Assembly (NCBI GenBank): GCA_017642895.1
Contig: JAEPON010000001.1
Coordinates: 248,001 to 312,000 of the forward strand
Direction of reading: 5' to 3'
Source: Roseitalea sp.
Lineage (GTDB): Bacteria; Pseudomonadota; Alphaproteobacteria; Rhizobiales; Rhizobiaceae
DNA length: 64,000 bases
Shown: one piece after another, positions 38,043-63,996 of the stretch
How positions within the stretch are numbered: the stretch's first letter is position 1
Layout of the letters: each line of letters begins with the position of its first letter
Notes under the pieces: generated by a model
Seen by the model: the letters and a program-made list of their open reading frames with translations, nothing else
Database searches by the model: none
What the model was told of the DNA's origin: nothing
Program-made: the position numbers and the translations under genes

Positions 38043-38049
38043 GCCAACC

Positions 38050-38076: not shown

Positions 38077-38093
38077 TCCAAAGCCATTTTCCC

Positions 38094-40732: not shown

Positions 40733-40736
<4 letters not shown>
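39987..40736 (+). CDS. Liv-type ABC ATPase (LivG family)
   Basis: A 249-residue nucleotide-binding subunit. Walker A GPNGAGKST is at about 38-46. Instead of the usual SGGQ-type signature the sequence is LSHGQRRQLEVAVAL near 151-165, the form typical of LivG proteins. Walker B is VFVMDEPMAGL near 171-181. The start ATG at 39987 overlaps the LivM stop. It joins with the LivF-type protein as the ATP-hydrolysing pair of this importer. Confidence 0.92.
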
Positions 40737-41419
<683 letters not shown>

Positions 41420-42993: not shown

Positions 42994-43173
42994 AGCTTCT
43001 CTCAGCCGCTGGACGCGCTCGGTCTCGTGATAGCTGCAGCGACGACAGGGTATCTGTTGACCAGCTTTGCAAGCGGTGCCGTGCTGCGCTTGCCGCCCAT
43101 CGGAAGGGGCCCCTTCATCCAGATTCTTGACACGGCGCGTTCAAATTCGGTTGTCAAATCGGATATTGTATGA
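42949..43173 (+). pseudogene. MFS transporter fragment
   Basis: On the plus strand, the stretch GVSWPSVSQSFSQPLDALGL then VIAAATTGYLLTSFASGAVL (about 42967-43090) looks like the first two helices of a major facilitator transporter. The frame ends at 43173 with no further helices. It overlaps the 5-prime remains of the response regulator on the other strand, so a deletion joined two partial genes. The identification rests on a short segment. Confidence 0.5.
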
Positions 43174-43184
43174 AAATATGCAAT
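43165..43184. promoter_or_regulatory. ATTGTAT/ATGCAAT inverted repeat upstream of the first CUT2 operon
   Basis: ATTGTATGAAAATATGCAAT contains ATTGTAT and ATGCAAT as inverted half-sites 6 bases apart, 28 bases before the binding-protein start. Similar ATTGNAT elements occur before four other transcription units of this region. This suits a GntR-family operator, and a GntR gene lies at 54613. Binding is inferred. Confidence 0.5.
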
Positions 43185-43211
43185 CTGTTTGATCCGGTAA
43201 GGAGCATGTCA

Positions 43212-44195: not shown

Positions 44196-44293
44196 AACCA
44201 AAGGCTTTGCCGACAGGTGGCATGGATTGGCCATGCCACCGGTATGGTTTGAGTGCGTCAATGCAAACAGCCAATACAGTTATGGAGCAACAG

Positions 44294-48729: not shown

Positions 48730-48743
48730 CTCGGAGACATTTT

Positions 48744-49334
48744 ATGGGCGCGACATTGCCGTTTCTGCGCGATGCTCAATGGTTTGGCGAGCCGCCAACG
48801 TGGGACTGGACCGCTGGCGGATTGGAAGTCGTCACGGGAGATCGGACCGATTTCTGGCAGGAGACATTTTATGGTTTCCATCGCGACGATGGACATTTTT
48901 TGGGTGCTCCGGCGCCGCGCGAATTCAGTGCTACTGTCACTTTCGAAGGTGACTACGAAACGCTGTACGACCAGGCGGGCATGATGTTGCGCCTCAACGA
49001 GCGGACTTGGCTCAAGACCGGTATCGAGTTCTCCGACGATGTGACAAATTTTTCCGTCGTTGTCACACGCGAACGGTCAGATTGGTCGGTTATTGGCGTG
49101 CCGCTTGTTTCAGGGCCGCAGCAGGTTCGGTTGACCCGTTTGGGCAACGCCGTGCTTGTCCACTTTCGAAACCAGGCCGGCAACTGGAACCTGATGCGGG
49201 TGGCAGATTTCCCCAACACCGACGGCGCTTGGATTGGACCGATGGCCTGTTCGCCGCAACGTGCCGGGTTTCGCGCCCGGTTTTCCGACTTCGCCATCGA
49301 TAAGCCGATCGAAAATGCTCTGCATAGCAATTGA
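48744..49334 (+). CDS. DUF1349 concanavalin-like protein
   Basis: A 196-residue protein with the DUF1349 pattern: WTAGGLEVVTGDRTDFWQETFYGFHRDDGHFLG near 22-54, GDYETLYDQAGMMLRLNERTWLKTGIEFSDDVTNFSVVVTRERSDWSVI near 69-117. The fold is a beta-sandwich of the laminin-G/concanavalin type, thought to bind carbohydrate-like ligands; the enzymic role, if any, is not established. No signal peptide is seen, so it is cytosolic. It lies 14 bases after the second permease and 9 before the racemase-family gene, so it belongs to the catabolic operon. Confidence 0.85.
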   Translation: MGATLPFLRDAQWFGEPPTWDWTAGGLEVVTGDRTDFWQETFYGFHRDDGHFLGAPAPREFSATVTFEGDYETLYDQAGMMLRLNERTWLKTGIEFSDDVTNFSVVVTRERSDWSVIGVPLVSGPQQVRLTRLGNAVLVHFRNQAGNWNLMRVADFPNTDGAWIGPMACSPQRAGFRARFSDFAIDKPIENALHSN

Positions 49335-49343
49335 GGTGCCCCG

Positions 49344-50372
49344 ATGAGACTGGACAGGACGATAACCGTTGTTGGCGCGCACGCTGAAGGCGAGGTCGGG
49401 CGGGTGATCACCGGCGGTGTCCTTGCGCCGCCCGCCGGCTCCATGTTTGAGAGAATGCAGACTATCGAGCGCGACATGCCGTGGTTGCGCGACATGTTGC
49501 TCTTTGACCCGCGCGGCAGTGTGAATGCAGCGGTCAATCTGATCACGCCGCCGATCGACCCGACGGCGGATTTCGGTATGATCGTGATGGAGTCGGACTA
49601 TTTCGTGCCCATGTCGGGGTCCAATCTGATCTGCACAGTGACCGTCGCCCTCGATACTGGCATCATCGAAATGTCAGAGGGTATCAACACCGTTCGTGTC
49701 GACACGCCGGCCGGGTTGGTCGAGGTCGACGCAGACTGCGCCAATGGCAAATGTCGAAGCGTTACGTTCCGCAACGTCCCCTCTTTCGTTTTGCACGACA
49801 ATGCACGCATCGACGTTCCCGAACTGGGACCATTGTGGGTCGATGTCGCCTATGGCGGCATGATCTACGTTCTGGTCAAGATCGATGACGTGCCCGTCAG
49901 CTTGCGGTCCGAAGATGCGCGCCGGCTGGTCGAGCTTGGCGAGAACATCAAGTCGGCGGCAGCCATGCAATTGCCGAGCATACATCCGCGCAATCCCGAG
50001 ATCCATACCATCAACCAGACGGCATTTGTGGGGCCCGTCGAAACGACGGATGGAATGCGGGTGTCAAAGAATGCCGTTGTTGTGTCTCCTGGCCGTTTGG
50101 ATCGTTGCCCGTGCGGCACAGGCACCTCGGCGCGCATGGCCGTGATGCACGCGCATGGCGAATTGAGTGTTGGAGAGTTGTTTCAACACACCTCCATTCT
50201 GGACACGCAGTTTCGATGTCGCATTGTCGAAACGACGTCGGTGGGAACCCACCCGGCGATCGTTCCCGAGATCACCGGTCGGGCGTGGATCACGGGGATC
50301 AGCCAATATGGCGTCGACCCCGATGATCCTTTCCCCAGTGGCTATCGGCTGGGCGACACTTGGTTTCGTTGA
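49344..50372 (+). CDS. Proline racemase-family enzyme (hydroxyproline epimerase/dehydratase type)
   Basis: A 342-residue enzyme of the proline racemase superfamily. The first catalytic position is Ser91 in VPMSGSNLICT, where racemases have Cys (MCGH). The second is Cys257 in DRCPCGTGTSARMA. EGEVGRVITGG near 15-25 is the family N-terminus. Members of this superfamily with altered catalytic pairs act on hydroxyprolines (4-hydroxyproline 2-epimerase or trans-3-hydroxyproline dehydratase) rather than proline. Downstream genes for KGSA dehydrogenase and a pyrroline-carboxylate deaminase-like lyase support 4-hydroxyproline breakdown. The exact reaction needs a test. Confidence 0.88.
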   Translation: MRLDRTITVVGAHAEGEVGRVITGGVLAPPAGSMFERMQTIERDMPWLRDMLLFDPRGSVNAAVNLITPPIDPTADFGMIVMESDYFVPMSGSNLICTVTVALDTGIIEMSEGINTVRVDTPAGLVEVDADCANGKCRSVTFRNVPSFVLHDNARIDVPELGPLWVDVAYGGMIYVLVKIDDVPVSLRSEDARRLVELGENIKSAAAMQLPSIHPRNPEIHTINQTAFVGPVETTDGMRVSKNAVVVSPGRLDRCPCGTGTSARMAVMHAHGELSVGELFQHTSILDTQFRCRIVETTSVGTHPAIVPEITGRAWITGISQYGVDPDDPFPSGYRLGDTWFR

Positions 50373-50390
50373 CACGCTTGGGTGGTTGTG

Positions 50391-51827
50391 ATGGTCGATC
50401 CAAAAATGAACGTGATTGGCGCCGAGATGCGCGGCGTTGAGTTCTCACCCAATCTGAACCCGTCCGATCAATCCGATGTTGTCGGCGAATATGCGTCCGG
50501 ATCGGCCAAGGATGTGGAGGAGGCCGTGGCTGCGGCGCGCGAGGCCTTTGCGTCATGGTCGCATTCGGGCACTGCCGAACGGCACGGTGTGCTGCGCCGC
50601 GCGTCGGACGAGATTTTGGCGCGCAAGGACGAGCTCGGCCGGCTTTTGGCGCGCGAAGAGGGCAAGACGCTGGCCGAGGCGACCGCCGAAGTAGGGCGGG
50701 CGGCGCAAATCTTCGATTTCTTCTCTGGTGAAGTGCTGCGTCTTTCCGGTGAAGTCATTCCCAGTGTCCGCCCCGGTATCAAAATCGAGGTGACGCGGGA
50801 CCCCGTCGGCGTGGTCGGACTGATCACACCGTGGAATTTTCCCATCGCAATTCCTGCCTGGAAGCTTGCCCCGGCGATCGCCTATGGAAACACGACCATT
50901 CTCAAGCCGGCCGATCTGGTGCCGGCGTGCGCATGGGAACTGGTCGATATCGTGCGTCGTGCCGGTGCACCGAGTGGTGTCGTCAATCTGGTGATGGGGC
51001 GTGGCTCGGTCGTCGGACAGGCGATGCTTGATCATCCGGGGATCGATGCGATCAGTTTCACAGGTTCTCAGGAGACAGGTAAGCGGGTTGCAGAAGCATC
51101 CATTGCCGTCGGGCGCAGGTTTCAGCTTGAGATGGGCGGCAAGAACCCGCTTGTCATTTTAGATGACGCAAATCTGGATGTTGCGGTTCAGTGTGCACTG
51201 AACGGCGCGTTTTTTTCCACCGGGCAACGTTGCACGGCTTCCTCCCGGCTGATTGCGACGGAGGGCATCCACGACGCGTTCGTGGATGCCCTGAAATCTG
51301 CGATGGCCCAATGTCGCGTCGGCCATGCGCTGGATCCGGAAACCAGTATCGGCCCGGTCGCCAGTTCCGCTCAACTCCATCAAGATATGGACTATATCGA
51401 CATAGGCCGCGCCGAGGGCGCCGAACTTGTGCAGGGCGGTGAGCGGATCAATGCCGAAACAGAAGGTTTTTTTCTCACACCTGCGTTGTTCACGCAGAGC
51501 AGCAACACGATGCGCATTTCGCGTGAGGAGATTTTCGGGCCGGTCGCCAGCGTGATCAAAGCGCAGGACTATGAACATGCTCTGCACCTCGCCAACGATA
51601 CAGAAATGGGGCTGGTTGCAGGAATCTGCACGACGGCTTTGAAGCACGCCGAGCATTTCAAGCGACACGCCGAAGCCGGGATGGTGATGGTCAACCTGCC
51701 GACGGCGGGCGTCGATTTTCACGTGCCGTTCGGCGGGCGCAAGGGGTCGAGTTTCGGGCCGAGAGAGCAGGGGCGCTACGCTGCGGAGTTTTTCACGCAC
51801 GTGAAGACGTCCTACACACAGCCCTGA
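50391..51827 (+). CDS. Aldehyde dehydrogenase, alpha-ketoglutarate semialdehyde type
   Basis: A 478-residue NAD(P)-dependent aldehyde dehydrogenase. The nucleophile is Cys281 (GQRCTASSR) and the general base Glu247 (LEMGGKNP). TPWNFPIAIPAWKLAPAIAYGNT near 146-168 and the end RKGSSFGPREQGRYAAEFFTHVKTSY are typical of 2,5-dioxovalerate (alpha-ketoglutarate semialdehyde) dehydrogenases. These convert the last intermediate of hydroxyproline, arabinose or glucarate catabolism to 2-oxoglutarate. ATG 50391 is chosen, with GGTGG upstream. It follows the racemase-family gene after 18 bases. The lyase that would make its substrate is downstream, after a small gap with its own possible promoter. Confidence 0.88.
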   Translation: MVDPKMNVIGAEMRGVEFSPNLNPSDQSDVVGEYASGSAKDVEEAVAAAREAFASWSHSGTAERHGVLRRASDEILARKDELGRLLAREEGKTLAEATAEVGRAAQIFDFFSGEVLRLSGEVIPSVRPGIKIEVTRDPVGVVGLITPWNFPIAIPAWKLAPAIAYGNTTILKPADLVPACAWELVDIVRRAGAPSGVVNLVMGRGSVVGQAMLDHPGIDAISFTGSQETGKRVAEASIAVGRRFQLEMGGKNPLVILDDANLDVAVQCALNGAFFSTGQRCTASSRLIATEGIHDAFVDALKSAMAQCRVGHALDPETSIGPVASSAQLHQDMDYIDIGRAEGAELVQGGERINAETEGFFLTPALFTQSSNTMRISREEIFGPVASVIKAQDYEHALHLANDTEMGLVAGICTTALKHAEHFKRHAEAGMVMVNLPTAGVDFHVPFGGRKGSSFGPREQGRYAAEFFTHVKTSYTQP

Positions 51828-51865
51828 CCGCACGGATCGGCTACCGGCTAGACATCAACCCGAAT

Positions 51866-51876
51866 ATTGTATAACT
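51866..51876. promoter_or_regulatory. ATTGTAT element upstream of the DHDPS-family gene
   Basis: ATTGTATAACT lies in the 82-base gap between the aldehyde dehydrogenase and the lyase gene, with AT-rich flanks. It shares the ATTGNAT half-site seen before the other units of this region. Only one good half is present, so it is weak evidence. Confidence 0.35.
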
Positions 51877-51909
51877 TTATCCTAAATTCGCTCAACGATG
51901 GAGGACCCC

Positions 51910-52821
51910 ATGACCAAGTGGACCGGCGTTTTTCCGGCCGTTACAACAAAGCTATCTGAAAACGGCGAGATCGATGTCGAGGCCACGCAGTCCTCGATCA
52001 ATCGGCTGATTGAAAATGGTGTCTCCGGTGTGATCGTCCTGCCCATGCTGGGCGAGAACGCGTCAATGTCGATTGATGAGAAGGTCGCCGTCATTGAAGC
52101 GGCCAAGGAGACCGTCAACGGCCGCGTGCCATTGTTGACCGGGCTTGCCGAGATCACCTCCACGGACGCTGTTGCGAGGGCGCGCCAATTTCATGCGCTC
52201 GGCGTGGACGGCCTGATGGTGTTCCCGAGCATCGGATACAAGACCGACGCACGGGAGACCGAGCAATGGTATCGTGCCGTCGCCAGCGCCAGCCCGCTGC
52301 CGATCATGGTCTACAACAATCCGATTGCATATGGCGTGGATGTGACGCCGGAGATTCTGCAAGCGCTTTCAGATTGCGAGACAATCGTCGCGGTCAAGGA
52401 AGAGACCGGCGACGTTCGCCGGGTCACGGACATGTTCGTGGCGCTTGGCGATCGCTATCGGATCTTCTGCGGCGTCGATGATCAGATCGTCGAGAGCATG
52501 TCATTGGGCTCCGTCGGCTGGGTGTCTGGCATGACCAATGCCTGGCCCAAGGAGTGTGTTGGGATCTTTGATCTGTGCACGGCGGGGCGCTACGAGGAAG
52601 CGCGTGAAATCTATCGCATCCTGACACCGGCGTTCCATCTCGACACCCATGTCAAACTTGTTCAGTACATCAAGCTAGCCGAGCATGTTGTCTATGGGGC
52701 GCCGGAATGGTGTCGCGCGCCCCGCCTGGCTCTGGTCGGCGATGAGCGGGAGCGGGTCTTGTCCATCCTTCGGAACACGGTCAGCGATCTTGACGCTTAT
52801 GCGACAAGCCGGGCCGCCTAG
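51910..52821 (+). CDS. DHDPS-family lyase, probable 1-pyrroline-4-hydroxy-2-carboxylate deaminase
   Basis: A 303-residue class I aldolase-fold protein. The Schiff-base Lys is K163 (AVKEETGD), with Tyr135 in MVYNNPIAYG and LGEN at 47-50 in place of the GTTGE loop. The pattern DDQIVESMSLGSVGWVSGMTNAWPKE and VKLVQYIKLAEHVV...RAPRLAL matches the LhpC-like deaminase of hydroxyproline catabolism, which gives alpha-ketoglutarate semialdehyde. GGAGG precedes the ATG at 51910. Other DHDPS-family roles (2-keto-3-deoxysugar-acid dehydratase) remain possible. It converts the product that the preceding aldehyde dehydrogenase can oxidise. Confidence 0.85.
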   Translation: MTKWTGVFPAVTTKLSENGEIDVEATQSSINRLIENGVSGVIVLPMLGENASMSIDEKVAVIEAAKETVNGRVPLLTGLAEITSTDAVARARQFHALGVDGLMVFPSIGYKTDARETEQWYRAVASASPLPIMVYNNPIAYGVDVTPEILQALSDCETIVAVKEETGDVRRVTDMFVALGDRYRIFCGVDDQIVESMSLGSVGWVSGMTNAWPKECVGIFDLCTAGRYEEAREIYRILTPAFHLDTHVKLVQYIKLAEHVVYGAPEWCRAPRLALVGDERERVLSILRNTVSDLDAYATSRAA

Positions 52822-52862
52822 GCCGGTGGATGTTTTGTCGGCATTTTCCAGGGGCTCATTGA

Positions 52863-54545
52863 ATGGCAGGTAAGGCGGATCGATACGACTACATCATCGT
52901 GGGCGCAGGCGCCGCCGGTTCGGTGGTGGCCGCGCGGCTGGCGGAAGATAGCGGCGCCCGTGTTCTCGTACTTGAGGCCGGGCCGACCGACCAGAGCGTG
53001 TTCGTGCGCATGCCGGCAGCGATGTCCTATCCTCTGACCGACGCCCGGCGCATTTGGGACTTTGAGACCGGGCCGGAGCCGGGGTTGGATGACCGCGTCT
53101 TGCCCCATGTGCGCGGCAAGATGCTCGGCGGGTCGGGCTCGCTCAACGGCATGGTTTATGTGCGCGGCAACCCGCGCGATTTTGATAATTGGGCCGCGCG
53201 GGGACTAGGGAGCTGGTCGTTCGCTCATTGCCTGCCCTATTTCAAGAAGCTGGAACGGTTCGACGGCGGCGCAAATGACTATCGAGGAGCATCCGGACCG
53301 ATCGCGGTGACGTCGCTGAAGGCCGACCTTCCCGTTTTTCAGTCTTTTCTTGAGGCTGGACAACAGGCCGGTCACACGCTCAATCTGGACTATAACGCCT
53401 TCCGGCAGGAAGGCGTGCATATCTACCAGGCCAACATCGACAACGGCATTCGCGCCAGCGGCGGGCGCCAGTATTTGCGGCCAGCCGTTGGTCGCAGGCG
53501 GGTCAAACTGCGCCTCAACGCCAATGTCGAGCGCGTTTTGTTCAAGGGCAGGCAGGCGGTCGGCGTCGAATATCGCGCCGGCGCCGAACTGCGCCGGGTT
53601 TATGCCGATACCGAGGTCATCTTGTGTGGCGGTGCCTTCAACACGCCGCAACTTCTCCTGCTTTCCGGGGTTGGACCCGAGGCCGAACTTGCCGAGCACG
53701 GCCTTGATTGTGTCGCCAACGTTCCCGGTGTCGGCAAAGGGCTGGTCGATCATCCGGCGGTTTCGGTCCGCTATCACGCCCGCCACGACGGCGTATCGCC
53801 GGCGGTCGGCATGGGACTGATCGGCATGGCGCTTGTCGGCGCCAACTGGCTGTTCCTGCGCCGCGGGCTCGGTGTCACGAACCTTTGGGAAGTCGGCACC
53901 TTCTTCAGAAGCAGTGATGATGTCGAATACGCCGACATCCAGCACGAGTTTCTGCCGATGCTGGGCGAACTCATGCATGGCGAGGTGAAAATCGAGGCCG
54001 GGTTTCAGTATCAGACTTGCCTGATGCGCCCCAAAAGCCGCGGCGAAGTTCGGCTCAGGAGCGCGGACCCCAGGGCAAAACCGAAGATCGTGGCAAACTA
54101 TCTCGTTCATCCTGAAGACCGCCGCGATCTCGCCAACGGCGTCCGCCATACCGACGAAATCGCGCAGCAGCGGGCCTGGGACGATATGCGCGGCCAGCCT
54201 GTCGTTTCGGGGCTACGGTCGATGAGCGATACCGATTTGAACGCCTGGATGAACGCCCATATCGGCACGCAATATCATCCCTGCGCGACCTGTCGCATGG
54301 GGACCGATGACATGGCCGTTGTCGATGATGAGGGGCGCGTGAACGGGGTGGAACAGCTTCGCATCGTTGATGCCTCGGTCTTCCCGACGATTACGAGCGG
54401 AAATCTGCATTGCCCGACAATGATGGTCGCAGAGAAGATCGCCGATCGCATCAGAAAAAGACCAGCATTGCCCGAAATACATGTCGGGTACGCCGATGCA
54501 ATCCCGCCCGGCAATGCCAAAAATCATGTGGTCTCCGACGCTTGA
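52863..54545 (+). CDS. GMC-family FAD oxidoreductase (choline dehydrogenase-like)
   Basis: A 560-residue flavoprotein. The FAD motif VGAGAAGSVVAARLAE is at 13-28, GGSGSLNGMVYVRGNPRDFDNWA near 90-112, and the GMC C-terminal part holds His472 in YHPCATCRMG, the usual catalytic His, then VDASVFPTITSGNLHCPTMMVAEKIAD near 500-526, where the second catalytic His/Asn is LHC. The family oxidises alcohols; the substrate is not evident. It follows the lyase by 41 bases. In a hydroxyproline-like pathway the missing oxidation step could be done by this enzyme, though known D-hydroxyproline dehydrogenases belong to other flavoprotein families. Confidence 0.9.
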   Translation: MAGKADRYDYIIVGAGAAGSVVAARLAEDSGARVLVLEAGPTDQSVFVRMPAAMSYPLTDARRIWDFETGPEPGLDDRVLPHVRGKMLGGSGSLNGMVYVRGNPRDFDNWAARGLGSWSFAHCLPYFKKLERFDGGANDYRGASGPIAVTSLKADLPVFQSFLEAGQQAGHTLNLDYNAFRQEGVHIYQANIDNGIRASGGRQYLRPAVGRRRVKLRLNANVERVLFKGRQAVGVEYRAGAELRRVYADTEVILCGGAFNTPQLLLLSGVGPEAELAEHGLDCVANVPGVGKGLVDHPAVSVRYHARHDGVSPAVGMGLIGMALVGANWLFLRRGLGVTNLWEVGTFFRSSDDVEYADIQHEFLPMLGELMHGEVKIEAGFQYQTCLMRPKSRGEVRLRSADPRAKPKIVANYLVHPEDRRDLANGVRHTDEIAQQRAWDDMRGQPVVSGLRSMSDTDLNAWMNAHIGTQYHPCATCRMGTDDMAVVDDEGRVNGVEQLRIVDASVFPTITSGNLHCPTMMVAEKIADRIRKRPALPEIHVGYADAIPPGNAKNHVVSDA

Positions 54546-54566
54546 CGCTTGCATATATATCGTTGA

Positions 54567-54577
54567 ATTGGATACAT
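54567..54577. promoter_or_regulatory. ATTGGATACAT element upstream of the GntR gene
   Basis: ATTGGATACAT lies 36 bases before the GntR GTG start, close to the ATTGGATCCAAT-type operators known for VanR-like GntR proteins. It matches the half-site found before the other operons of this region, so autoregulation is plausible. Confidence 0.4.
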
Positions 54578-54612
54578 GAGTATCGCTTTCATTGAACAGT
54601 CAAGGACACTCC

Positions 54613-55287
54613 GTGACCAAGCTGGCGCTCCAACGACCGACTGTAACGAGCATGGTTGTCAGCCACATTGCCGACAAGATCGTTTCCGGCGAACTCCCCG
54701 GCGGTTCGCAGATCCGGCAAGAGGCGATTGCCAACGAACTTGGCGTCAGCCGCGTCCCTGTGCGTGAAGCCTTGTTGCAACTCGAAGCGGACGGGCTGGT
54801 TCAGATCGCCACGCATCGGGGTGCGATTGTCTCCAATCTGTCCAAGGCCGATGCGGTCGATGTTTTCGAAGCGCGCCGGACTCTGGAACTGTTTTTGTTG
54901 GAGAAGGCCGTGGAAGCCGCCGGCGCTGAGGACTACGAGCGCGCCGAGGACATTCTGCGCCGCTATGATGATGCCGTGCAGCAAAATGCCAGCCCCGCGC
55001 GGCTGAGCCAGTTGAACTGGGATTATCATCTCGGCTTGCTGCAACCGGCCGACAGGCCGCGCACTTTGAACGTTATCAAGACGCTCTACACGTCGCTCGA
55101 CCGATACTTGCGATTGCAGATTCGTCCACGATCGGCACAGGCGGCGGCCATACGGGATCATTGGCAGATCTACGAAGCCTATGTGAAGCGCGACACCAAA
55201 ACGGTCGTCGCTCTGTCCAAAGAGCACATAGACCACGCCTACGAGGAAGTGCTTCTTCGGCTCGACCAGATGCCCTTGTCCGAATAG
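54613..55287 (+). CDS. GntR-family (FCD domain) transcriptional regulator
   Basis: A 224-residue regulator. Residues 10-75 form the GntR winged helix (VTSMVVSHIADKIVSGELPGGSQIRQEAIANELGVSRVPVREALLQLEADGLVQIATHRGAIVSNLS), followed by an all-helical FCD effector domain. The GTG at 54613 with AGGA upstream is the best start; a TTG at 54592 is possible. FCD regulators sense organic acids and often bind ATTGNATNCAAT-like palindromes. Such elements occur upstream of this gene and of the neighbouring units, so it probably controls the whole 43-63 kb region. Confidence 0.9.
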   Translation: MTKLALQRPTVTSMVVSHIADKIVSGELPGGSQIRQEAIANELGVSRVPVREALLQLEADGLVQIATHRGAIVSNLSKADAVDVFEARRTLELFLLEKAVEAAGAEDYERAEDILRRYDDAVQQNASPARLSQLNWDYHLGLLQPADRPRTLNVIKTLYTSLDRYLRLQIRPRSAQAAAIRDHWQIYEAYVKRDTKTVVALSKEHIDHAYEEVLLRLDQMPLSE

Positions 55288-55331
55288 TGCATGCGCAGTC
55301 GGTCTATGCGCGTTTTCGAATAACTTTTTGA

Positions 55332-55343
55332 ATTGCATACAAT
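55332..55343. promoter_or_regulatory. ATTGCATACAAT palindrome upstream of the aldehyde dehydrogenase
   Basis: ATTGCATACAAT is a near-perfect 12-base palindrome 32 bases before the ATG at 55375, within an AT-rich promoter-like segment. It is the cleanest copy of the ATTGNAT...CAAT element in this region and lies right after the GntR gene. Confidence 0.55.
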
Positions 55344-55374
55344 CTAGCAAAATACAGGATGAAGCAGAGCAGTT

Positions 55375-56850
55375 ATGGATATTCGTGAATACGGAATATG
55401 GATTGATGGTCGCGAGCATGAGCCCGCTGACCGTGACGTGCTTCGCAGGTCGTCCCCCTCCACAGGACAACATGTCGCCACCTTCGCGCTGGCGGAGCCC
55501 TCCGACGTTGATCGCGCCGTGGACGCCGCCCGCAAGGCATTCGATGACGGCGTCTGGTCGCTTCGGCCGGCCAGCGCCCGCGGTCAGATCTTGTTGCGTT
55601 TTGCCGATTTGATTGAGGAGGCGCTGCCGGGGCTGGCCCGGATGGAGGCCCATGAGGCCGGAAAGACGATCTCTGCAGCCCGGGAGGAACTCAACTGGTC
55701 GCTGGAACTGCTGCGCTATGCGGCCAGCCTGGCCTGGAACATGCCCGGACGATTGGTCGACCAAGAGGGAAGGGACAAAATTGGGCTTGTGACCTACGAG
55801 CCGTTGCCCGTTGTCGGCATGATCCTGCCGTGGAACTTCCCGACGGTGACCCTTTTTCAGAAACTGCCCTATGCATTGGTGGCAGGCTGTTCAGTTGTCA
55901 TCAAGCCGTCTGAATTCACCGCCGGCACGACTCTTGAATATGCGCGGTTGGCGAAAAAAGCGGGCGTTCCGGACGGCGTCGTGGCCGTCTTGCCCGGAAC
56001 CGGTCCGGTGGTCGGCGACCGCATGTGCCGCCATCCCGACATAGACATGATTTCATTTACCGGATCGACCAGCGTGGGTCGACATATTGCGAGCGTGGCG
56101 GGCGAAAGCCTCAAGAAGGTGGCGCTGGAATTGGGCGGCAAGGGCGCGAACATTGTCTTTGCCGACGCCGATCTTGATGCGGCGCTCGAAGGCGCCCTTG
56201 CCGCGTTCACGATCAATCAAGGCGAAGAGTGTTGCGCCGGAGGCCGGTTACTCGTTCAGGACACGATCGCTGATGCATTCGTTGAGAGACTGGCTGCCAA
56301 AACCGAACAGATGCGCCTAGGCACGCCGGATGATGACGACGCCGAGCTGGGGCCGATGATCCACGAGGCGCATTTGACGCGCGTGCTCGGCTATATTGAC
56401 GGTGCCAAACGCGATGGCGCACAACTGCTCGCCGGCGGCGGACGGGCGAATGACGATCGTCTGAGCGAGGGCTTTTTCGTCCAGCCAACGGTGTTCTCGG
56501 ACGTCACGCCGGACATGTCGATCTTTCGCGAGGAGGTCTTCGGCCCGGTTGTTGCCGTCACGCGTTTTCACGATCGCGAAGACGCAATCGCGCTGGCGAA
56601 CGCGACATCATACGGCCTGGCCAATGGCGTGTGGACTTCGGATCTGGACAACGCGATTGCGATGTCTCGGGCGCTTCAAAGCGGCTTTGTCTATGTCAAT
56701 TCCTATCTTGAAACGGTGCCGCAATTGCCGTTTGGCGGGGTCAAGCAGAGCGGTCTGGGTCGTGAAAACGGCCCCGAAGGTCTGTTGGAGTTTATGCAGA
56801 CAAAATCGACCTTCATTAAGCTGAAGCCAGCCCGCCAATACACCCAATAG
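55375..56850 (+). CDS. Aldehyde dehydrogenase (betaine/hydroxybutyraldehyde-like)
   Basis: A 491-residue aldehyde dehydrogenase distinct from the one at 50391. Glu252 (LELGGKG) and Cys286 (GEECCAGGR) are the catalytic pair; the residue two before the Cys is Glu284 where most have Gln. ILPWNFPTVTLFQKLPYALVAGC near 150-172 and the end LPFGGVKQSGLGRENGPEGLLEFMQTKST are typical of the betaine-aldehyde/gamma-aminobutyraldehyde group. It has its own promoter region with the ATTGCATACAAT palindrome. The Gfo/Idh/MocA gene follows after 13 bases. The aldehyde is not identifiable from sequence. Confidence 0.9.
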   Translation: MDIREYGIWIDGREHEPADRDVLRRSSPSTGQHVATFALAEPSDVDRAVDAARKAFDDGVWSLRPASARGQILLRFADLIEEALPGLARMEAHEAGKTISAAREELNWSLELLRYAASLAWNMPGRLVDQEGRDKIGLVTYEPLPVVGMILPWNFPTVTLFQKLPYALVAGCSVVIKPSEFTAGTTLEYARLAKKAGVPDGVVAVLPGTGPVVGDRMCRHPDIDMISFTGSTSVGRHIASVAGESLKKVALELGGKGANIVFADADLDAALEGALAAFTINQGEECCAGGRLLVQDTIADAFVERLAAKTEQMRLGTPDDDDAELGPMIHEAHLTRVLGYIDGAKRDGAQLLAGGGRANDDRLSEGFFVQPTVFSDVTPDMSIFREEVFGPVVAVTRFHDREDAIALANATSYGLANGVWTSDLDNAIAMSRALQSGFVYVNSYLETVPQLPFGGVKQSGLGRENGPEGLLEFMQTKSTFIKLKPARQYTQ

Positions 56851-56863
56851 CAGGAGATTAGCG

Positions 56864-57892
56864 ATGAAGCCGGTCCGATTTGGAATTGTGTCAACAGCCA
56901 AGATCGGTCGAGAATGGGTGATCCCGGCGATGCTGAAGGTTCCCGAGTGCGAGGTGGTGGCTATTTCATCGCGTGATCAAGAGCGGGCAGCGCAAGTCGC
57001 ACAACAGTTCGGTATCCCGCGCAGTTATGGATCGCTTGATGCCATGCTGCATGATCCCGACGTTGAGGCCGTCTATATTCCGACGCCGAACAATCGCCAC
57101 TTTCCCGATGCGATCGCTGCGGCGCGCGCCGGGCGGCACGTCTTGTGCGAAAAACCGATTGCGCTGACGATGCAGGAAGCGGCTGAACTCGCTGCTGTTC
57201 AGGAACAAACCGGCGTGCAGATGTCCGAGGCGTTCATGGTGCGCTATCACCCCAGATGGCTCAAGGCGCGCGACATTGTACGCGAGGGCCGGCTGGGCCG
57301 GGTGACCCAGATTCATGCGACCTACAGCGTCATGAACGACAATCCGGACGACATACGATTTCGGCCCGAACTCGGCGGAGGAGCGCTGGGCGATGTCGGC
57401 GTATACCCGATCACCGCGGCACGTTTCCTGTTTGAAAGTGAACCCGTTGCCGCAACGGCGCGGTTCGAGACCGCACGCCCGAACGGTGTGGACATCGCTG
57501 TTGCAGGGCTGCTGGAGTTTCCCGAAGACCGCAACCTACTCTTCAGCGGCGCGCTCCGCCAGGCTTGGGCGCACTGGATCATGGTGAGCGGAACCGAGGG
57601 ATGGATGGAGGTCCCGATTTCGGTGTGGCCAAAGCCGGACCAAGAGACCGTCATCCGTATTCGCGGCCAGAATGACATCCGCGACGATCAGATCGAAACG
57701 CTCCGCTTTGAGCCCACAAACCAGTACGAGCACGAAGTCAGGGCGTTTGCGCTGGCCGTTCGCGGCGAAGCTGGCCAGCCTTGGCCAATCACCGATGCGG
57801 TTGCCGGCATGCGGGTGCTCGACGCGGTGCGCGCGTCCGCCGCCAGCGGACAAAAGGTCCTTATAGACTCCAGTGGCCTGCACGCCTGCTGA
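56864..57892 (+). CDS. Gfo/Idh/MocA-family oxidoreductase
   Basis: A 342-residue NAD(P)-dependent sugar or inositol dehydrogenase-type protein. The N-terminal Rossmann motif begins RFGIVSTAKIGREWV, slightly altered from GxGxxG. The EKP motif is present in HVLCEKPIALTM near 93-104, and GGGALGDVGVYPI near 170-182 is the C-domain signature with the catalytic Asp/His region. It follows the aldehyde dehydrogenase and ends a two-gene unit; 239 bases separate it from the next binding protein. It suggests that a polyol, sugar or cyclitol-like compound is oxidised in the pathway. Confidence 0.9.
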   Translation: MKPVRFGIVSTAKIGREWVIPAMLKVPECEVVAISSRDQERAAQVAQQFGIPRSYGSLDAMLHDPDVEAVYIPTPNNRHFPDAIAAARAGRHVLCEKPIALTMQEAAELAAVQEQTGVQMSEAFMVRYHPRWLKARDIVREGRLGRVTQIHATYSVMNDNPDDIRFRPELGGGALGDVGVYPITAARFLFESEPVAATARFETARPNGVDIAVAGLLEFPEDRNLLFSGALRQAWAHWIMVSGTEGWMEVPISVWPKPDQETVIRIRGQNDIRDDQIETLRFEPTNQYEHEVRAFALAVRGEAGQPWPITDAVAGMRVLDAVRASAASGQKVLIDSSGLHAC

Positions 57893-58073
57893 GACAAGTT
57901 GACGTTGCGGTCGAAAACCTGCGGCGGTTTCTGGTCGACATGTCCGGTCGCTCGCCCTCATTGCGCCGAGCCATGTCTCCGCAACGCCGGCGGGACACCG
58001 GCCCGATCGCCATCATTGCTGCCTCATTCACTGCATTGTTGCACAGGCATCGATCGCAAAGTTGACTAACAAT

Positions 58074-58118
58074 ATGCAATATGTTTTCATTCAAAGTGTA
58101 GAAATTGCTTGATTGTAT
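58074..58118. promoter_or_regulatory. ATGCAAT and ATTGTAT elements upstream of the second CUT2 operon
   Basis: ATGCAAT (58074-58080) and ATTGTAT (58112-58118) lie upstream of the binding-protein start at 58132, the second overlapping the ribosome-site region. Between them, ATGTTTTCATTCAA matches the segment ATATTTTCATACAA of the complementary strand at 43165-43184 in all but two positions, tying this promoter to that of the first CUT2 operon. Confidence 0.45.
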
Positions 58119-58131
58119 CCGGGAGGCAGAC

Positions 58132-59076
58132 ATGAGATTGACAACGATAATTGCCGTCGCGTTGAGCGCGACGGTCCTGACAACGCCGACGCTGGCCCAG
58201 AACCAGAGCGTCGGTCTGGTCGTTGCACGCACGGGCGATCCCGTTTTCGCGATGATGGAATGCGGTGCTCGCCGCGCGGCCATGGAGCTGGGGTTCGATA
58301 TCCAGGTGAACGGCCCGCCGGAGTGGAACGCGCAGCAGCAGATTCCGATAGTGCGCGCGATGATAGCCAGCCAGCCGGACGCCGTCGTCATTGATCCGAC
58401 CGATGCGGTTGCCTTGCAGGCGCCGCTTCGCGAGGCTCTGGATGCCGGCATGAAAGTCGTCACCGTCGATTCCGAGCTCGGCGGCGATCTGGGCATACCG
58501 CATATCGGCACCGACGGCATCGAGGGCGGACGCGAAGCGGGACGGCAACTGGTCGATCTGATCCACGGTCAAGGGACTGTACTGGTCGTTGGCGTTGCGC
58601 CGGGCATTGCGATCACCGACCAGCGCCACGCCGGTTTCATGGAGATCATGGGCCAACATCCAGACATTACGGTGCTTGAGAAGCAATTTGCCGGCGATGA
58701 TCCCGGCAAAGTGTCGGAGGCGATCCGTGGTGCACTGGCCGCGCATCCCGATCTTGCCGGCATCCATGCTGATGCAACGTTGATCGGCGAATTTGTCGGC
58801 GCTACTTTGCGCAATCTGGATCGCGCGGACATTCCAGCCGTGGCCTTCGATGCCAGCCCGACGGAGGTCGACTGGCTGAAGCAGGGATATCTTGACGTGC
58901 TGCTGCCGTTCAACCCTGATGAACTGGGCTATCTCGGTGTCCACAACGCGGCACAACAGCTTGCCGGCGAGGAAGTGGAACCGCTTGTCCTGAAAGGGTA
59001 TTTTGCGGTGACGCGCGATAATCTGGAAACACCGGAAGCGCAATCGACGATCTACACGTTCGACTGCAACGGTTGA
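58132..59076 (+). CDS. CUT2 sugar-type ABC substrate-binding protein, second system
   Basis: A 314-residue periplasmic binding protein. The signal peptide MRLTTIIAVALSATVLTTPTLA is cleaved near residue 22. QSVGLVVARTGDPVFAMMECGARRAAMELGFDIQV near 25-59, DAVVIDPTDAVALQAPLREALDAGMKVVTVDS near 82-113 and TDGIEGGREAGRQLVDLI near 125-142 are the ribose-type fold. GGGAGG lies upstream of the ATG. It starts the operon with a dimethylformamidase-like gene, a single-domain ATPase and a permease. Only weak resemblance to the first system's binding protein is visible, so it should bind a different or modified solute. Confidence 0.9.
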   Translation: MRLTTIIAVALSATVLTTPTLAQNQSVGLVVARTGDPVFAMMECGARRAAMELGFDIQVNGPPEWNAQQQIPIVRAMIASQPDAVVIDPTDAVALQAPLREALDAGMKVVTVDSELGGDLGIPHIGTDGIEGGREAGRQLVDLIHGQGTVLVVGVAPGIAITDQRHAGFMEIMGQHPDITVLEKQFAGDDPGKVSEAIRGALAAHPDLAGIHADATLIGEFVGATLRNLDRADIPAVAFDASPTEVDWLKQGYLDVLLPFNPDELGYLGVHNAAQQLAGEEVEPLVLKGYFAVTRDNLETPEAQSTIYTFDCNG

Positions 59077-59082
59077 ACAGCC

Positions 59083-61218
59083 ATGCCGATGCCAGCAAAC
59101 CCATCGCGCCACGATATGCGCCAAGAACCAAGCGGCTATCTTAACGCGATAAGCGTTCGGCCGGGACAGACCGTTGCGCTGCATCTGAGCGGGCGGGGAG
59201 AGACCGACATCGGTCTCGTCCGCTTGCAAAAGTCCGGGCCGGAGCAATGCGATAGCCTTCAAGTGGACAGCGTGCCCACAATCAAGGCGCCGCTCGAGAG
59301 CCAGCGCTTGTCGCCTGGCAGCGGCTTTGAGTTTCGTTTGCCGGCTGAATGCTTGGGCGAAGACGACTGGTTGCTGGATTTCATGGTTATGCCCACGCTG
59401 GTCAGGGATGACGGTCATGTTCTGGCGGCCGTCAGCGCTGGCGGTGAAACCTGTCGGCTGACGATCTTTCCAGATCAAATCCGCCTCGAGATGCACGGCC
59501 AGCCCCCGGTATCGGGCGGGGTTGGCCTTGAGGTCGGGAGGTGGTCGCAGGTCAAACTGCGCGCCCGGCGATCAAAGCGGCAGGTCGTGGCCTCTGTTTC
59601 GGACGCTGTCGATGTCACAATGGCCTGGTGCCCGGAAGGCGACGTGACGATCACGTTGGGTCGCCATCCGCGAGGGACCGGCGGGCGCGGTGCCAACGCG
59701 CGCATCGAAGCGCCGCGCGTTGCGCTTGTCGCCGGCGATGATCCGTCGATCCGCAGACCACTATGCGCCTTTGATTTCGCAGCCGCGTTCGCTTCGACCG
59801 ACCTTGTTGCCAGCTTCGGAGAACCCATTGATGGGCGCTTTATCAATCATCCGACACGGCGCGTCCTGGGCCGGGGTAGAACAGACGTCCTCCAGGCCGA
59901 CCCGGACTCGGACGCACGCCTTCATTGTGCCATCCACGTCCACGAATACGACCTTACCGACGCCGAATGGGATGAAACCGGGCGGTTGCGGGTTCCAGAC
60001 GGTATCGAAAGTGGCGTCTACGCGGTCCAGGCGACATCCGGGACGGAGCGGCTGCGGCTGCCGTTCGTTGTCCGGCCCACACCGGGCAAGGAAAAGCGAT
60101 GCCTGCTGCTCCTTCCCACCTACACCTATCTGGCCTACGCCAATGAACGCCTGGCCTTCTCTGAACGTGGCGCTGCGCTGACATCAGAAACCGGCGGCGC
60201 GGCACTTTCGGAGATGGACAAGGCGCTGGATGCTGCGCCCGAACTCGGCGCTTCGCTCTATGACCGCCATGCTGACGGAAGCGGCGTGCATTATTCGTCG
60301 CGCAGGCGGCCGATTCTGAACTTCTCGCCCGACTACCGCGCCTGGTGGTGCACTCGCGCACCGCGCCATTTCCTTGCCGATCTGAACATTGCCCAGTGGC
60401 TGGATCATTTCTCCTTTGAGTACGATGTCGCAACCGACGAGGACCTACATCGTGAAGGCGAGGGCCTTCTTGACCTCTACGATGTTCTCATGACCGGAAC
60501 GCATCCTGAATATACGACTGCAAGAATGTTGTCGGCACTGCACCGTTTTGCGGACAACGGGCACATCCTCTATCTGGGTGCCAACGGCTTTTACTGGGTT
60601 ACCGGCGCCGATCCGCAAGACACAGGGGTGATCGAAAGCCGGCGCGGCTTTGCAGGAACACGCAACTGGAATTCCGACCCGCTGGAAGTGCGGTTGTCGA
60701 CGACGGGAGAGCCGGGCGGGTTGTGGCGGCACCGCGGCCTGGCACCTAACCGGTTGACGGGGCTTGGCTTTGGCGCCGTGGGCTTCACGAAGGGCTCTGG
60801 CTACAAGCGAACGGACGCATCCTACGAACCTGCATTTGCGTGGATTTTCGACGGCATTGAAGATGCCGTCATCGGCGATTTCGGCGACATCGTGGGCGGC
60901 GCGGCCGGCGATGAACTCGACCGGATGGACCCGGCGCTCGGCACGCCCGATGGCACCGTCCTGCTGGCCTCGTCGTCGCATGACCGGACGTTTCTGCCTG
61001 CGATCGAAGACGAGATCGAAATTCAACACGAGCTCGGCGGCGACAACAATCCAAATGTGCGCGCCGACATGGTCTATCTCGAACGCCCCGGCGGCGGCCG
61101 CTTGTTTGGAACCGGCTCGATCAATTGGTGCGGCAGCCTTGCGCACAACGGCTTTGACAACTCCGTTTCGCGCGTCACGCACAATGTGCTCACCGCGTTT
61201 CTTGGTGGCCGGCGATGA
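59083..61218 (+). CDS. N,N-dimethylformamidase large-subunit-like protein with N-terminal lectin-like domain
   Basis: A 711-residue protein. Residues 80-210 look like a laminin-G/concanavalin-type sandwich (FEFRLPAECLGEDDWLLDFMVMPTL ... VGRWSQVKLRARRSKRQVVASV). Residues 340-705 match the large subunit domain of N,N-dimethylformamidase: LLLLPTYTYLAYAN near 347, HPEYTTARMLSALHRFADNGHILYLGANGFYWVTG near 474-508 and the late HNVLTAFL end. The known enzyme hydrolyses an amide with a mononuclear iron held by two Tyr and a Glu; Tyr477 is a likely ligand. No separate small subunit gene is seen. It sits in an ABC operon, between binding protein and ATPase, so it probably cleaves an imported amide or N-acyl compound. 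Confidence 0.8.
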   Translation: MPMPANPSRHDMRQEPSGYLNAISVRPGQTVALHLSGRGETDIGLVRLQKSGPEQCDSLQVDSVPTIKAPLESQRLSPGSGFEFRLPAECLGEDDWLLDFMVMPTLVRDDGHVLAAVSAGGETCRLTIFPDQIRLEMHGQPPVSGGVGLEVGRWSQVKLRARRSKRQVVASVSDAVDVTMAWCPEGDVTITLGRHPRGTGGRGANARIEAPRVALVAGDDPSIRRPLCAFDFAAAFASTDLVASFGEPIDGRFINHPTRRVLGRGRTDVLQADPDSDARLHCAIHVHEYDLTDAEWDETGRLRVPDGIESGVYAVQATSGTERLRLPFVVRPTPGKEKRCLLLLPTYTYLAYANERLAFSERGAALTSETGGAALSEMDKALDAAPELGASLYDRHADGSGVHYSSRRRPILNFSPDYRAWWCTRAPRHFLADLNIAQWLDHFSFEYDVATDEDLHREGEGLLDLYDVLMTGTHPEYTTARMLSALHRFADNGHILYLGANGFYWVTGADPQDTGVIESRRGFAGTRNWNSDPLEVRLSTTGEPGGLWRHRGLAPNRLTGLGFGAVGFTKGSGYKRTDASYEPAFAWIFDGIEDAVIGDFGDIVGGAAGDELDRMDPALGTPDGTVLLASSSHDRTFLPAIEDEIEIQHELGGDNNPNVRADMVYLERPGGGRLFGTGSINWCGSLAHNGFDNSVSRVTHNVLTAFLGGRR

Positions 61219-61964
61219 CCGCCCCTGCGTTGAAGGCGCGCGGCATCGTCAAGCGCTACGGGCACATTGAAGCGCTGCGCGGGGTCGATTTTCAGGTCGA
61301 TCACGGCGAGGTCGTTGCGCTCATCGGTGACAACGGTGCCGGCAAGAGTACGCTCTCGAAGATCCTGGTCGGTGCGATCGAACCGACAGAAGGGACAATC
61401 GAGTTTGAGGGCGGCCCCGTTGTCTTCAAAGGACCAGCCGACGCGCGTCGACACGGGCTTGAGATCGTCTATCAGGATCTCGCGCTCGCGCCGCATCTCG
61501 AACCGGCGGAGAACTTCTACCTGGGACGAGAGATTTATAGGGGCGGTGCGTTGGGGCGGTGGCTTGGTCTGCTGGATCGGGCAACGATGCGTCGCCGCGC
61601 CATCGAAGCGATGCGAACCTTGAACGTCAATCTCAAGGACGAGCGCGGCCGGATCTCCGAGCTCTCCGGCGGCCAGCAGCAAGGTGTCGCGGTGGCGCGC
61701 GCCGCGTTCTGGGCGTCTAGTGTGCTGTTCCTCGACGAACCGACGGCTGCGCTCGGCGTGCGCCAGCGCTCGGGCGTACACGACATGATCAAGAAGGTTC
61801 AACAAAATGGCCTCGGCATCGTTCTGATCAGCCACGACCTGCCGGAAGTGATGGATGTCGCAGACCGAATTCACGTGCTTCGGCGCGGTGAGACGGCGAA
61901 GATCTACGAACGGGGCGAAACCGACACGATGGGGTTGGTCGCCGCGATAACCGGTGCCCATTGA
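61215..61964 (+). CDS. CUT2-type ABC ATPase, single domain (FrcA-like)
   Basis: A 249-residue ATPase with one nucleotide-binding domain, in contrast to the double-domain protein of the first system. Walker A GDNGAGKST is at about 38-46, LSGGQQQGVAVARAAFW near 152-168 is the signature, and Walker B VLFLDEPTAALGVRQ near 172-186 follows. FrcA-type single-domain ATPases are known in rhizobial fructose transporters. It overlaps the previous gene by 4 bases and the permease start region. It drives the single permease downstream. Confidence 0.92.
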   Translation: MTAPALKARGIVKRYGHIEALRGVDFQVDHGEVVALIGDNGAGKSTLSKILVGAIEPTEGTIEFEGGPVVFKGPADARRHGLEIVYQDLALAPHLEPAENFYLGREIYRGGALGRWLGLLDRATMRRRAIEAMRTLNVNLKDERGRISELSGGQQQGVAVARAAFWASSVLFLDEPTAALGVRQRSGVHDMIKKVQQNGLGIVLISHDLPEVMDVADRIHVLRRGETAKIYERGETDTMGLVAAITGAH

Positions 61965-61966
61965 AG

Positions 61967-62956
61967 ATGGCGAGGCGGGCGGCAGACAGTAACGGACTGA
62001 TGAGGCTGTTGGCCTCGGGTCGATTCCGGTGGTTGTGGCTTCTTGTGTGCTTGTTGGGCCTGTTCGCCTTCTTTGCGGCGTGGAATCCAACCGCGGTTCT
62101 GTCGACCTACAACGTTCGCAACATCATCGGCGACGCTTCAACGCTTTTGATTGTTGCGGTTGGCGTGACATTCGTGGTCGCAACCGCCGGCATCGACCTG
62201 TCATTGGGTGCGGTGCTGATATTTTGTCAGGTCATTGCGGCCAAGACCATGATAGCCGTCGGCGGTTCGGGTTGGGACGCAACGCTTGCCGGAACCGCAG
62301 CCGCGCTTCTGGCCGGTATTGCCTGGGGGACCCTGAACGGCGTAATGGTGGCCCGTTTGCGCATCCCGCCTCTTATTGCAACGCTCGGCACATTGGGCAT
62401 GGCCGGCGGAACCGCGCTTCTGATTACGAACGGTATCAATGTTCGTACCGGAATCCCCGATGAGTTGACGTTGGTTATCGGCGCCGGCCGGTTGTTCAAC
62501 CTGCTGCCCTACACATCGGTCGTTGCCATTGTGGTCGTTGCCGCCGCTGTGTTTGCTCTCAATTACACGCGCTTTGGTCTGCATGTGCTTGGCATCGGTT
62601 CCAACGAGGTCGCAGTCGAACGAACCGGCGTCAATGTCGCCTCGGTCAAGATCAGAGTCTATGCGCTGTCGGGCGCCTGCGCCGGACTTGGCGCGGTGGT
62701 GGACTTGGCGCGCTTCTCAACGACGGCCGTTGGTGCCTATTCCACGCTCAGCCTGGAGGCGATCGCGGCGGCCGTCATTGGCGGCACCAGCCTGTTTGGC
62801 GGCGTTGCCTCGATCATAGGGGCGGTGATCGGAGTCTTCATCCCGGCGGTGCTGCGAAACGGTTTTGTGATCCTGGGCGTTTCATCCTTTTGGCAGCAGA
62901 TCGCCGTTGGCATCATTCTGGTCACCGCCGTCTACATCGATCAACGGCGACGCTGA
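61967..62956 (+). CDS. CUT2-type ABC permease (RbsC/FrcC family), second system
   Basis: A 329-residue permease. STLLIVAVGVTFVVATAGIDLSLGAVLIFCQVIAAK near 46-81 is the family signature, and SLEAIAAAVIGGTSLFGGVASIIGAVIGVFIPAVLRNGFVILGV near 260-303 the C-terminal part. ATG 61967 is used; a TTG at 61961 overlapping the ATPase stop (TTGA) is the alternative. As the only permease of this set, it probably forms a homodimer. A possible terminator hairpin follows at 63024-63056. Confidence 0.9.
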   Translation: MARRAADSNGLMRLLASGRFRWLWLLVCLLGLFAFFAAWNPTAVLSTYNVRNIIGDASTLLIVAVGVTFVVATAGIDLSLGAVLIFCQVIAAKTMIAVGGSGWDATLAGTAAALLAGIAWGTLNGVMVARLRIPPLIATLGTLGMAGGTALLITNGINVRTGIPDELTLVIGAGRLFNLLPYTSVVAIVVVAAAVFALNYTRFGLHVLGIGSNEVAVERTGVNVASVKIRVYALSGACAGLGAVVDLARFSTTAVGAYSTLSLEAIAAAVIGGTSLFGGVASIIGAVIGVFIPAVLRNGFVILGVSSFWQQIAVGIILVTAVYIDQRRR

Positions 62957-63056: not shown

Positions 63057-63190
63057 TGCCTTTCGAAAGCATAATCGGGGATTGATGGAGAGAGCGGGCT
63101 GACCAGGCGGGCGTATTTCTCTGGAACAGGATTTGCTGCCGTCAGAGCAGGTTGCTGCTTCACACCTCGTTTCCTTTCGTCTGCATCATC

Positions 63191-63996
63191 ATGTCTGGCG
63201 ATCTGACTATGGCGAAGTCCGATACGCCGCCGGAGATCAGCGTCGGCAGAATCCGATCCTTTCTGGCGGTGGCCGAGCATGGCAGCATTCGCGGCGCATT
63301 GGCCGGGCTGGATTTGGCGTTCACCGAAACCCGCAGTGCTGGCTCGGCGGCCGGCGGCGACCTGGCGATCGCCTACTATCCGTCTTTGGCGTCGGGCAAT
63401 CTGCGCCAGTTGCTGGCAGCCCGCGCCCAAAAGTGGCCGCGTATCCGGGCGGAATACACCGAGGCTCCTTCGGAGGATCAGTTGGCGGGTTGCGCGGCCG
63501 TGAGTTCGATGCGGTCTTCCTGATCGGCGTTGAGGCAATGCAGGATTTCGACAGCGTGCCGCTCTGGACCGAGCGGGTCCATGTTGCCCTGCCGGAAGAC
63601 CATATCCTGGCCAAACCCGATGCCTTGACCCGGCAGCATATCCGCTACGAACCTTTCGTCGTGCGGCGTTGGGCCAGCGGATCGATGATCTGGCACCGGC
63701 TCGCCGACCGGATGATCGCCGACGGGATCGAGCCGAGTCGCACAACATGCCGTATCGCGCGGCGATCTCTCTTGGGGCTCGTCGCCATCGGGCGCGGCCT
63801 CACCGTCGTTTCGGATGCGGCAACCAGCATGACCATTCCGGGCGTCGTCTATCGCCCTGTCGATGATCCGGACGCGACGATCACCGTGCGCCTTGCCTGG
63901 ATGCCCGAGAACGACAATCCGGCATTGCCCCGGTTCGTCAGTTTTGCGAAGAGCTTTGTCCAGGATCCGGCGGCGGCTGCTTCGCCATCGACGTAG
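63191..63996 (+). pseudogene. LysR-family regulator, deleted and frameshifted
   Basis: The start, from ATG 63191 or 63209, reads ISVGRIRSFLAVAEHGSIRGALAG, the beginning of a LysR helix-turn-helix. The recognition helix and linker are missing: it jumps at about 63310 into the effector domain (GDLAIAYYPSLASGNLRQLLAARAQKWPRIRAEYTEA). Near 63490 the frame shifts by one base, and the effector domain goes on as LRGREFDAVFLIGVEAMQDFDSVPLWTERVHVALPEDH to the stop at 63994-63996. Without a DNA-binding helix and with a frameshift it is dead. It once may have regulated the operon to its left. Confidence 0.85.

Follow-up and report, generated by a model that had tools for sequence, protein, structure and literature searches.

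A dimethylformamidase-family hydrolase lacking a detectable small subunit in a sugar-type importer operon of Roseitalea sp.

We analyzed a 64,000-nucleotide stretch of a Roseitalea sp. genome (GenBank assembly GCA_017642895.1, 4.33 Mb in 38 contigs; contig JAEPON010000001.1, positions 248,001 to 312,000; hereafter the window), in which a plus-strand gene at 59083..61218 encodes a predicted metal-dependent hydrolase of the DMFA2_C family (PF20254; 711 aa, ATG start). Open reading frames (ORFs) were called mechanically, so that all lengths and starts given here are approximate. The hydrolase represents a divergent, deep lineage of the known dimethylformamidase (DMFase) family that does without the small subunit and lies in an unusual importer operon, rather than a new kind of system. 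In the reading that we prefer, with a probability of about 60%, it acts as a single-chain cytoplasmic hydrolase of an imported small polar amide, most likely a carbohydrate-like one.

The match to the DMFase family is far above chance level. The hydrolase passes the curated cut-off of PF20254 by a wide margin (E = 2.4e-85; 287.7 bits where 27 are required) over residues 266–692, covering profile positions 15–373 of 374, and its sequence matches in the PDB are the DMFase large subunit (6lvb, E = 1e-84) and an acylase (8huy, E = 1e-80). No NCBIfam model was reported for it at an E-value of 0.001, and the source genome contains one match to the family. An AlphaFold2 model based on a 57-row alignment (mean predicted local distance difference test score (pLDDT) 90.9, predicted template modelling score (pTM) 0.93) gave 6lvb as its top match in VIA-align (Z 51.8, 690 residues, 2.9 Å, 31% identity), followed by mutants of 6lvb and then by 8huy (Z 49.8, 31% identity), and Foldseek likewise ranked acylase and DMFase chains first. 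The remaining VIA-align rows were far below, such as a GH42 arabinopyranosidase with a Z of 16.6 over 224 residues, in a list whose missing families are not thereby excluded. The DMFase-like assignment made in the initial annotation, which had relied on the motifs HPEYTTARM and YLGANGFYW (both present in the ORF), is therefore borne out by profile, sequence and predicted structure.

Aligning the hydrolase to DmfA2, the Paracoccus DMFase large subunit (6lvb), placed an Ig-like domain at residues ∼12–76 plus ∼292–337, a pentraxin/LamG-like domain at ∼77–291 and a ThuA-like catalytic domain at ∼338–710, and by this model a single chain would combine the same three domains as the DMFase large subunit. 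The pentraxin region is shorter by alignment (∼215 residues, compared to 264 in DmfA2). Laminin-G and pentraxin folds matched residues ∼75–262 of the model with Z-scores of ∼12–14, whereas the ThuA-like protein 4jqs matched only the catalytic part (residues 338–711; Z 14.8 over 216 residues, 10% identity), its likeness being confined to the fold of that domain. The N-terminal region is thus a beta-sandwich, as the initial annotation had supposed, but it cannot serve as a hint of sugar binding because DMFase itself has an Ig-like plus pentraxin part and its substrate is no sugar (PMC7686228). We rejected sugar binding by this domain as a substrate clue also because no Pfam lectin model scores in the N-terminal region; DmfA2 itself scores Laminin_G_3.

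In DMFase, Fe(III) is held by Y399, Y440 and E521, H519 is essential and N547 is shown in the active site (PMC7686228). By sequence alignment, these residues correspond to Y352, Y393, E476, H474 and N501 of the hydrolase. The two Tyr, the His and the Glu were kept in 75 of 75 alignment rows and N501 in 72 of 75; a further alignment with 85 rows gave 85 for Y352, Y393 and E476, 84 for H474 and 79 for N501. The 2-Tyr-1-Glu metal site and the essential His are, on these alignments, predicted to be kept, and we rejected a loss of the metal ligands, all of which appear in both. One family member (L240:4290) departs from this pattern, with a Gln aligned at the position of the catalytic His. Since all known metal-binding residues are kept, the hydrolase probably cuts an amide bond, and the bond would be one in a compound taken up by the cell. 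The second solved family member, the N-acetyl-(R)-beta-phenylalanine acylase (8huy, 8i59, 8i5a), shares family and fold with the hydrolase at 31% identity and takes its name from an N-acyl beta-amino acid; the 8huy entry lists one molecule with chains A and B.

Without its small subunit of ∼15 kDa, DMFase shows no activity (PMC7686228). The initial annotation had stated that no small subunit is encoded, and our searches agree. A small-subunit profile, built iteratively from genes adjoining family members, found no match among the window ORFs, and its 21-row version found nothing credible in the whole genome, the best match (E = 0.2) lying inside a 528-aa frame. On that basis we rejected a small subunit hidden elsewhere in the genome. 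Across the family, we compiled 155 large subunits of at least 500 aa after removing three duplicate loci (154 without the window). A small-subunit gene was adjacent in 65 of these 154 other unique loci, and its absence tracked with ORF length: 46 of the 50 ORFs of up to 735 aa had no detectable adjacent small-subunit gene, compared to 43 of the 104 longer ones. The hydrolase accordingly appears, from these searches, to function without a small subunit, and the PDB listing of the acylase suggests the same for that enzyme. Small-subunit-like genes elsewhere (for example L054:2314-2739, L056:8649-9050, L172:9025-9363 and L173:8784-9182) are labelled ‘hypothetical protein’ in a number of plasmid records; no Pfam model matched any of the three such proteins tested.

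The hydrolase gene is tightly packed into an importer operon. It follows the gene of a Peripla_BP_4 substrate-binding protein (58132..59076, plus strand; Pfam E = 2.6e-50; signal-peptide-like start by eye) after 6 bases and overlaps, by the 4 bases ATGA, the gene of a 249-aa ATP-binding cassette (ABC) ATPase with a single ABC_tran domain (61215..61964, plus strand; Pfam), which is followed by a ribose-permease-like BPD_transp_2 permease gene (61967..62956, plus strand; Pfam E = 3.8e-35; also open from TTG 61961). The position between binding protein and ATPase given in the initial annotation is therefore exact. For the binding protein, the ATG at 58132, which has GGGAGG ahead of it, is a likelier start than TTG 58105. 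The pair of Peripla_BP_4 and BPD_transp_2 proteins is that of a CUT2 (ribose-type) importer, while the two fused nucleotide-binding domains of the RbsA type are absent; FrcA-type CUT2 ATPases with a single domain are known. Among solved structures, the top matches to the binding protein bear the names of sugar- or ribose-binding ABC proteins, with 5dkv in first place (E = 5.3e-49), and a plasmid search with the binding protein returned 13 records at 32–36% identity. A literature search, limited in scope, retrieved no description of a CUT2 importer operon that carries a gene of the DMFase family.

We propose that the substrate enters through the CUT2-type importer of the operon and meets the hydrolase in the cytoplasm (no signal peptide was seen in the hydrolase by eye). 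Like DMFase, the enzyme would bind a mononuclear Fe(III), H474 may help to activate water, and a carboxamide (N-acyl) bond would be hydrolyzed without a small subunit. The products could then be oxidized by the GMC, aldehyde and Gfo/Idh/MocA dehydrogenases encoded upstream. The substrate would be a small polar amide and would most likely resemble a carbohydrate, as an aldonamide-like compound or an N-acylated amino sugar or amino polyol does. That the enzyme hydrolyzes a sugar-linked amide after import, as suggested in the initial annotation, is plausible. A carbohydrate-like amide is favored because of the importer type, the sugar enzymes beside two relatives (Leucobacter and Microbacterium, loci L197 and L199) and a DegT gene beside locus L128; an N-acyl imino acid is also possible because of hydroxyproline-like genes at 49344-52821.

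Relatives of the hydrolase are frequent. At E ≤ 1e-3 and with the source genome included, the family was found in 37 of 201 relatives, in 83 of 397 genomes sampled from the order (75 of the 83 below 1e-50), in 68 of 385 from the class and in 13 of 299 from the phylum; the samples were drawn evenly from larger groups and overlap, and the threshold admits a few remote matches (8 of 83 in the order sample). There was no family match in four other species of the genus, in 14 control genomes or in the viral contigs searched, and a first contig scan with a single protein as query also gave none, although other genome searches did find relatives. The best full-length match in the order, class and phylum samples was L128 with 42% identity, partial matches to the catalytic part reaching 48%. 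A scan of named genomes confirmed 558 stretches, of which the 80 most similar to the query were retained; it yielded the closest relative found, L175 from Mesorhizobium sp. MAG-134 (51% identity over residues 17–707). Its cluster shares with the window the binding protein (79%), ATPase (74%), permease (73%), aldehyde dehydrogenase (62%) and GMC oxidoreductase (64%). When 54 chosen rows were placed on a tree, the window and L175 joined with a support of 100, within a group of eight rows that also holds L055, L183, L168/L246 and L197/L199 (support 90), a weak grouping that is poorly resolved inside. An earlier tree without L175 had joined two long branches, the window and L168. One alignment of the family omitted L053 (a near-copy of L168), L043 (598 aa) and L139/L142/L158 (>1,000 aa), leaving 70 rows.

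Linkage to CUT2 importers recurs in other lineages. At L128, a DegT aminotransferase gene is followed through by the hydrolase, a permease, a single ATPase and a binding protein. In L197 (Leucobacter) and L199 (Microbacterium), an AP_endonuc_2 sugar-epimerase-like TIM barrel, a single ATPase, a permease and a binding protein accompany the hydrolase, with SDR and FGGY kinase genes nearby, and in L246 (Aeromicrobium) a two-domain ATPase and a permease adjoin it. No small subunit was detected at any of these four loci. Globally, a CUT2 binding protein or permease lay within 1.5 kb on the same strand in 7 of 154 loci, compared to 1 of 163 control genes drawn from those loci. We tentatively consider a broader proposal, which we regard as possible rather than probable: a small-subunit-free branch of the DMFase family might specialize in amides linked to carbohydrates (glycosylamides, aldonamides, or N-acylated amino sugars or polyols) that are imported by single-ATPase CUT2 systems. 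If true, the 2-Tyr-1-Glu iron site would be that of a sugar-amide hydrolase in the window organism, its Mesorhizobium relative, L128, Leucobacter and Microbacterium, far from solvent degradation. PMC7686228 describes this site in a single enzyme, one that degrades a solvent, yet roughly one in five genomes sampled from the order carries a relative. The operon-linked binding proteins offer a handle on the substrate, as the ligand of the 58132-59076 protein could name it.

Several observations weigh against our preferred reading. All steps beyond the fold are inference. At the position of F693 in the DMFase pocket, the hydrolase has a non-aromatic residue, which is I in one alignment and E in another, and substrate choice is therefore not transferable from DMFase. 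CUT2 adjacency was seen at just the 7 of 154 loci, 3 of which carry a small subunit (L056 from Agrobacterium vitis, L149 and L226), and the control for it is rough, 80 of the loci having been picked by similarity to the query. On the 54-row tree, the CUT2 label is weakly clustered, with six changes and 28 of 500 shuffles as low. At most loci, the flanks hold importers of other types (Dpp, Pot, TRAP) or none that was recognized; other family members lie near polyamine, D-amino-acid, dipeptide or TRAP genes. In L175, the operon of the three importer genes does not include the hydrolase gene, which is found 7 kb away, so the in-operon position is not conserved, and the 22-kb L175 stretch has no counterpart of the Gfo/Idh/MocA or GntR genes of the window.

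The genes upstream of the operon, all on the plus strand, bear on what the substrate might be. A Gfo/Idh/MocA oxidoreductase (56864..57892) has its best PDB matches in 4had, the 1,5-anhydro-D-fructose reductase 2glx and the sugar 3-ketoreductase 3rbv. It is preceded by a betaine-aldehyde-dehydrogenase-like aldehyde dehydrogenase below the equivalog cut-off (55375..56850), by a GntR/FCD transcriptional regulator (54592..55287; Pfam), which is likely the local regulator, and by a GMC oxidoreductase (52863..54545) that passes the NCBIfam choline-dehydrogenase subfamily model (644.6 against a cut-off of 605) but misses the betA equivalog (581 against 732.1). Further upstream are a dihydrodipicolinate synthase (DHDPS)-family gene (51898-52821; best model dapA, 168.9 against 206.15 bits), an alpha-ketoglutaric-semialdehyde (KGSA)-dehydrogenase-like gene (50382-51827; KGSA dehydrogenase, 525.1 against 770 bits) and a proline-racemase-family gene (49344-50372; trans-3-hydroxyproline (t3Hyp) dehydratase model, 398.7 against 550 bits). 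Judged by superfamily, the three genes at 49344-52821 look like a hydroxyproline-catabolism set; none of them reaches an equivalog cut-off, and a link to the hydrolase would be inferred. The proline-racemase-family protein reads MSGSN at its first active-site motif and CPCGTG at its second, presumably with a Ser at the first motif where a Cys is usual. Between the end of the Gfo/Idh/MocA gene and the start of the binding-protein gene lie about 240 bases, and a single transcript over the whole set is not implied. A promoter scan gave 2 sites (2.6 in shuffles) and a terminator scan 12 (8.8 in shuffles). We also considered rhizopine/inosamine catabolism as a substrate class, since Gfo/Idh/MocA and CUT2 genes are near, but the rhizopine-binding-protein model scored 63.7 bits against a cut-off of 420, and we left it as a lead only.

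The hydroxyproline-like genes could mean that the hydrolase is an N-acyl imino-acid amidase that releases hydroxyproline or a related imino acid from an N-acylated form, a tertiary amide, with the freed imino acid then degraded by the products of 49344-52821. This is a specific version of, and overlaps with, the preferred reading, and we consider it unlikely, though the best placed of the alternatives. The three genes fit the superfamilies of the hydroxyproline pathway (PMC4113996), and dimethylformamide (DMF) is itself a tertiary amide. The L175 cluster also contains a proline-racemase-family gene (47%) as well as a DHDPS-family gene directly after the hydrolase, which lies near an amidase-signature gene, and the flank of a relative at L135 includes genes with the labels DHDPS, DadA, aldehyde dehydrogenase and proline-racemase family. 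However, apart from the missed equivalog cut-offs, the L175 DHDPS protein is only 26% identical to that of the window, the proline-racemase-family label occurs in only 2 of 154 loci (among the matches listed), and the importer is of the sugar type. Nor was a D-amino-acid-oxidase (DAO)-type gene found among the Pfam-scanned genes at 43170-62956, where the GMC protein gave a weak DAO match (1.3e-6) over its first 33 residues.

Alternatively, the ThuA-like domain might act on a sugar derivative in a non-amide reaction, in which case the family name would mislead. The fold of the catalytic domain (4jqs; also termed ThuA-like for DMFase in PMC7686228), the adjoining CUT2 genes and the sugar-type enzymes at L197/L199 are compatible with this. 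As both solved family members are amide hydrolases (DMFase and, by PDB title, the N-acetyl-beta-phenylalanine acylase) and every ligand is kept along with the essential His, we regard such a reaction as improbable.

It is very improbable, in our estimate, that the hydrolase is a passenger that sits in the importer operon by chance and is unrelated to the imported compound. The separate importer operon of L175, the scattered CUT2 pairing on the tree and the acquired look of the whole 43–63 kb block would all fit a passenger, but hydrolase and importer share a cluster in both genomes, and the pairing with single-ATPase CUT2 importers recurs at L128, L197 and L199. A true formamide or DMF hydrolase, finally, is highly implausible despite the shared fold and metal-site residues, given that the small subunit on which DMFase activity depends was found in neither the window nor the genome and that a ribose-type importer would hardly be required for small formamides.

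The region 43170-62956, a run of ∼20 kb of consecutive plus-strand catabolic and import genes, differs in composition from the genes at 31 to 41 kb. The G+C content at third codon positions (GC3) of its genes is 0.59–0.74, compared to 0.78–0.85 for mechanically picked ORFs from 31 to 41 kb; downstream it is mixed, mostly 0.73–0.83 with a few lower values, and a few other window ORFs also reach 0.63–0.71. At stringent cut-offs, the binding protein, the GMC oxidoreductase and the Gfo/Idh/MocA oxidoreductase had no close homologues in the four congeners, which brings the proteins of this block without them to four when the hydrolase is included. The lower GC3 and the missing homologues suggest that the block may be an acquired catabolic island. 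Its first part (43170-49334) encodes a second CUT2 importer with a binding protein, a two-domain ATPase and two permeases; a TPR/YbgF-like ORF (46781-47713) separates the two permease genes, and a DUF1349 gene follows the set. Further upstream, at 36903-41419, lies an ABC importer of the urea/branched-chain amino-acid type with two ATPases, whose UrtA/B/C-like matches are below cut-off. Downstream of the operon, a LysR-type regulator gene (63133-63996) is seemingly broken, with a helix-turn-helix-like part (by eye) and a substrate domain (Pfam) in different frames.

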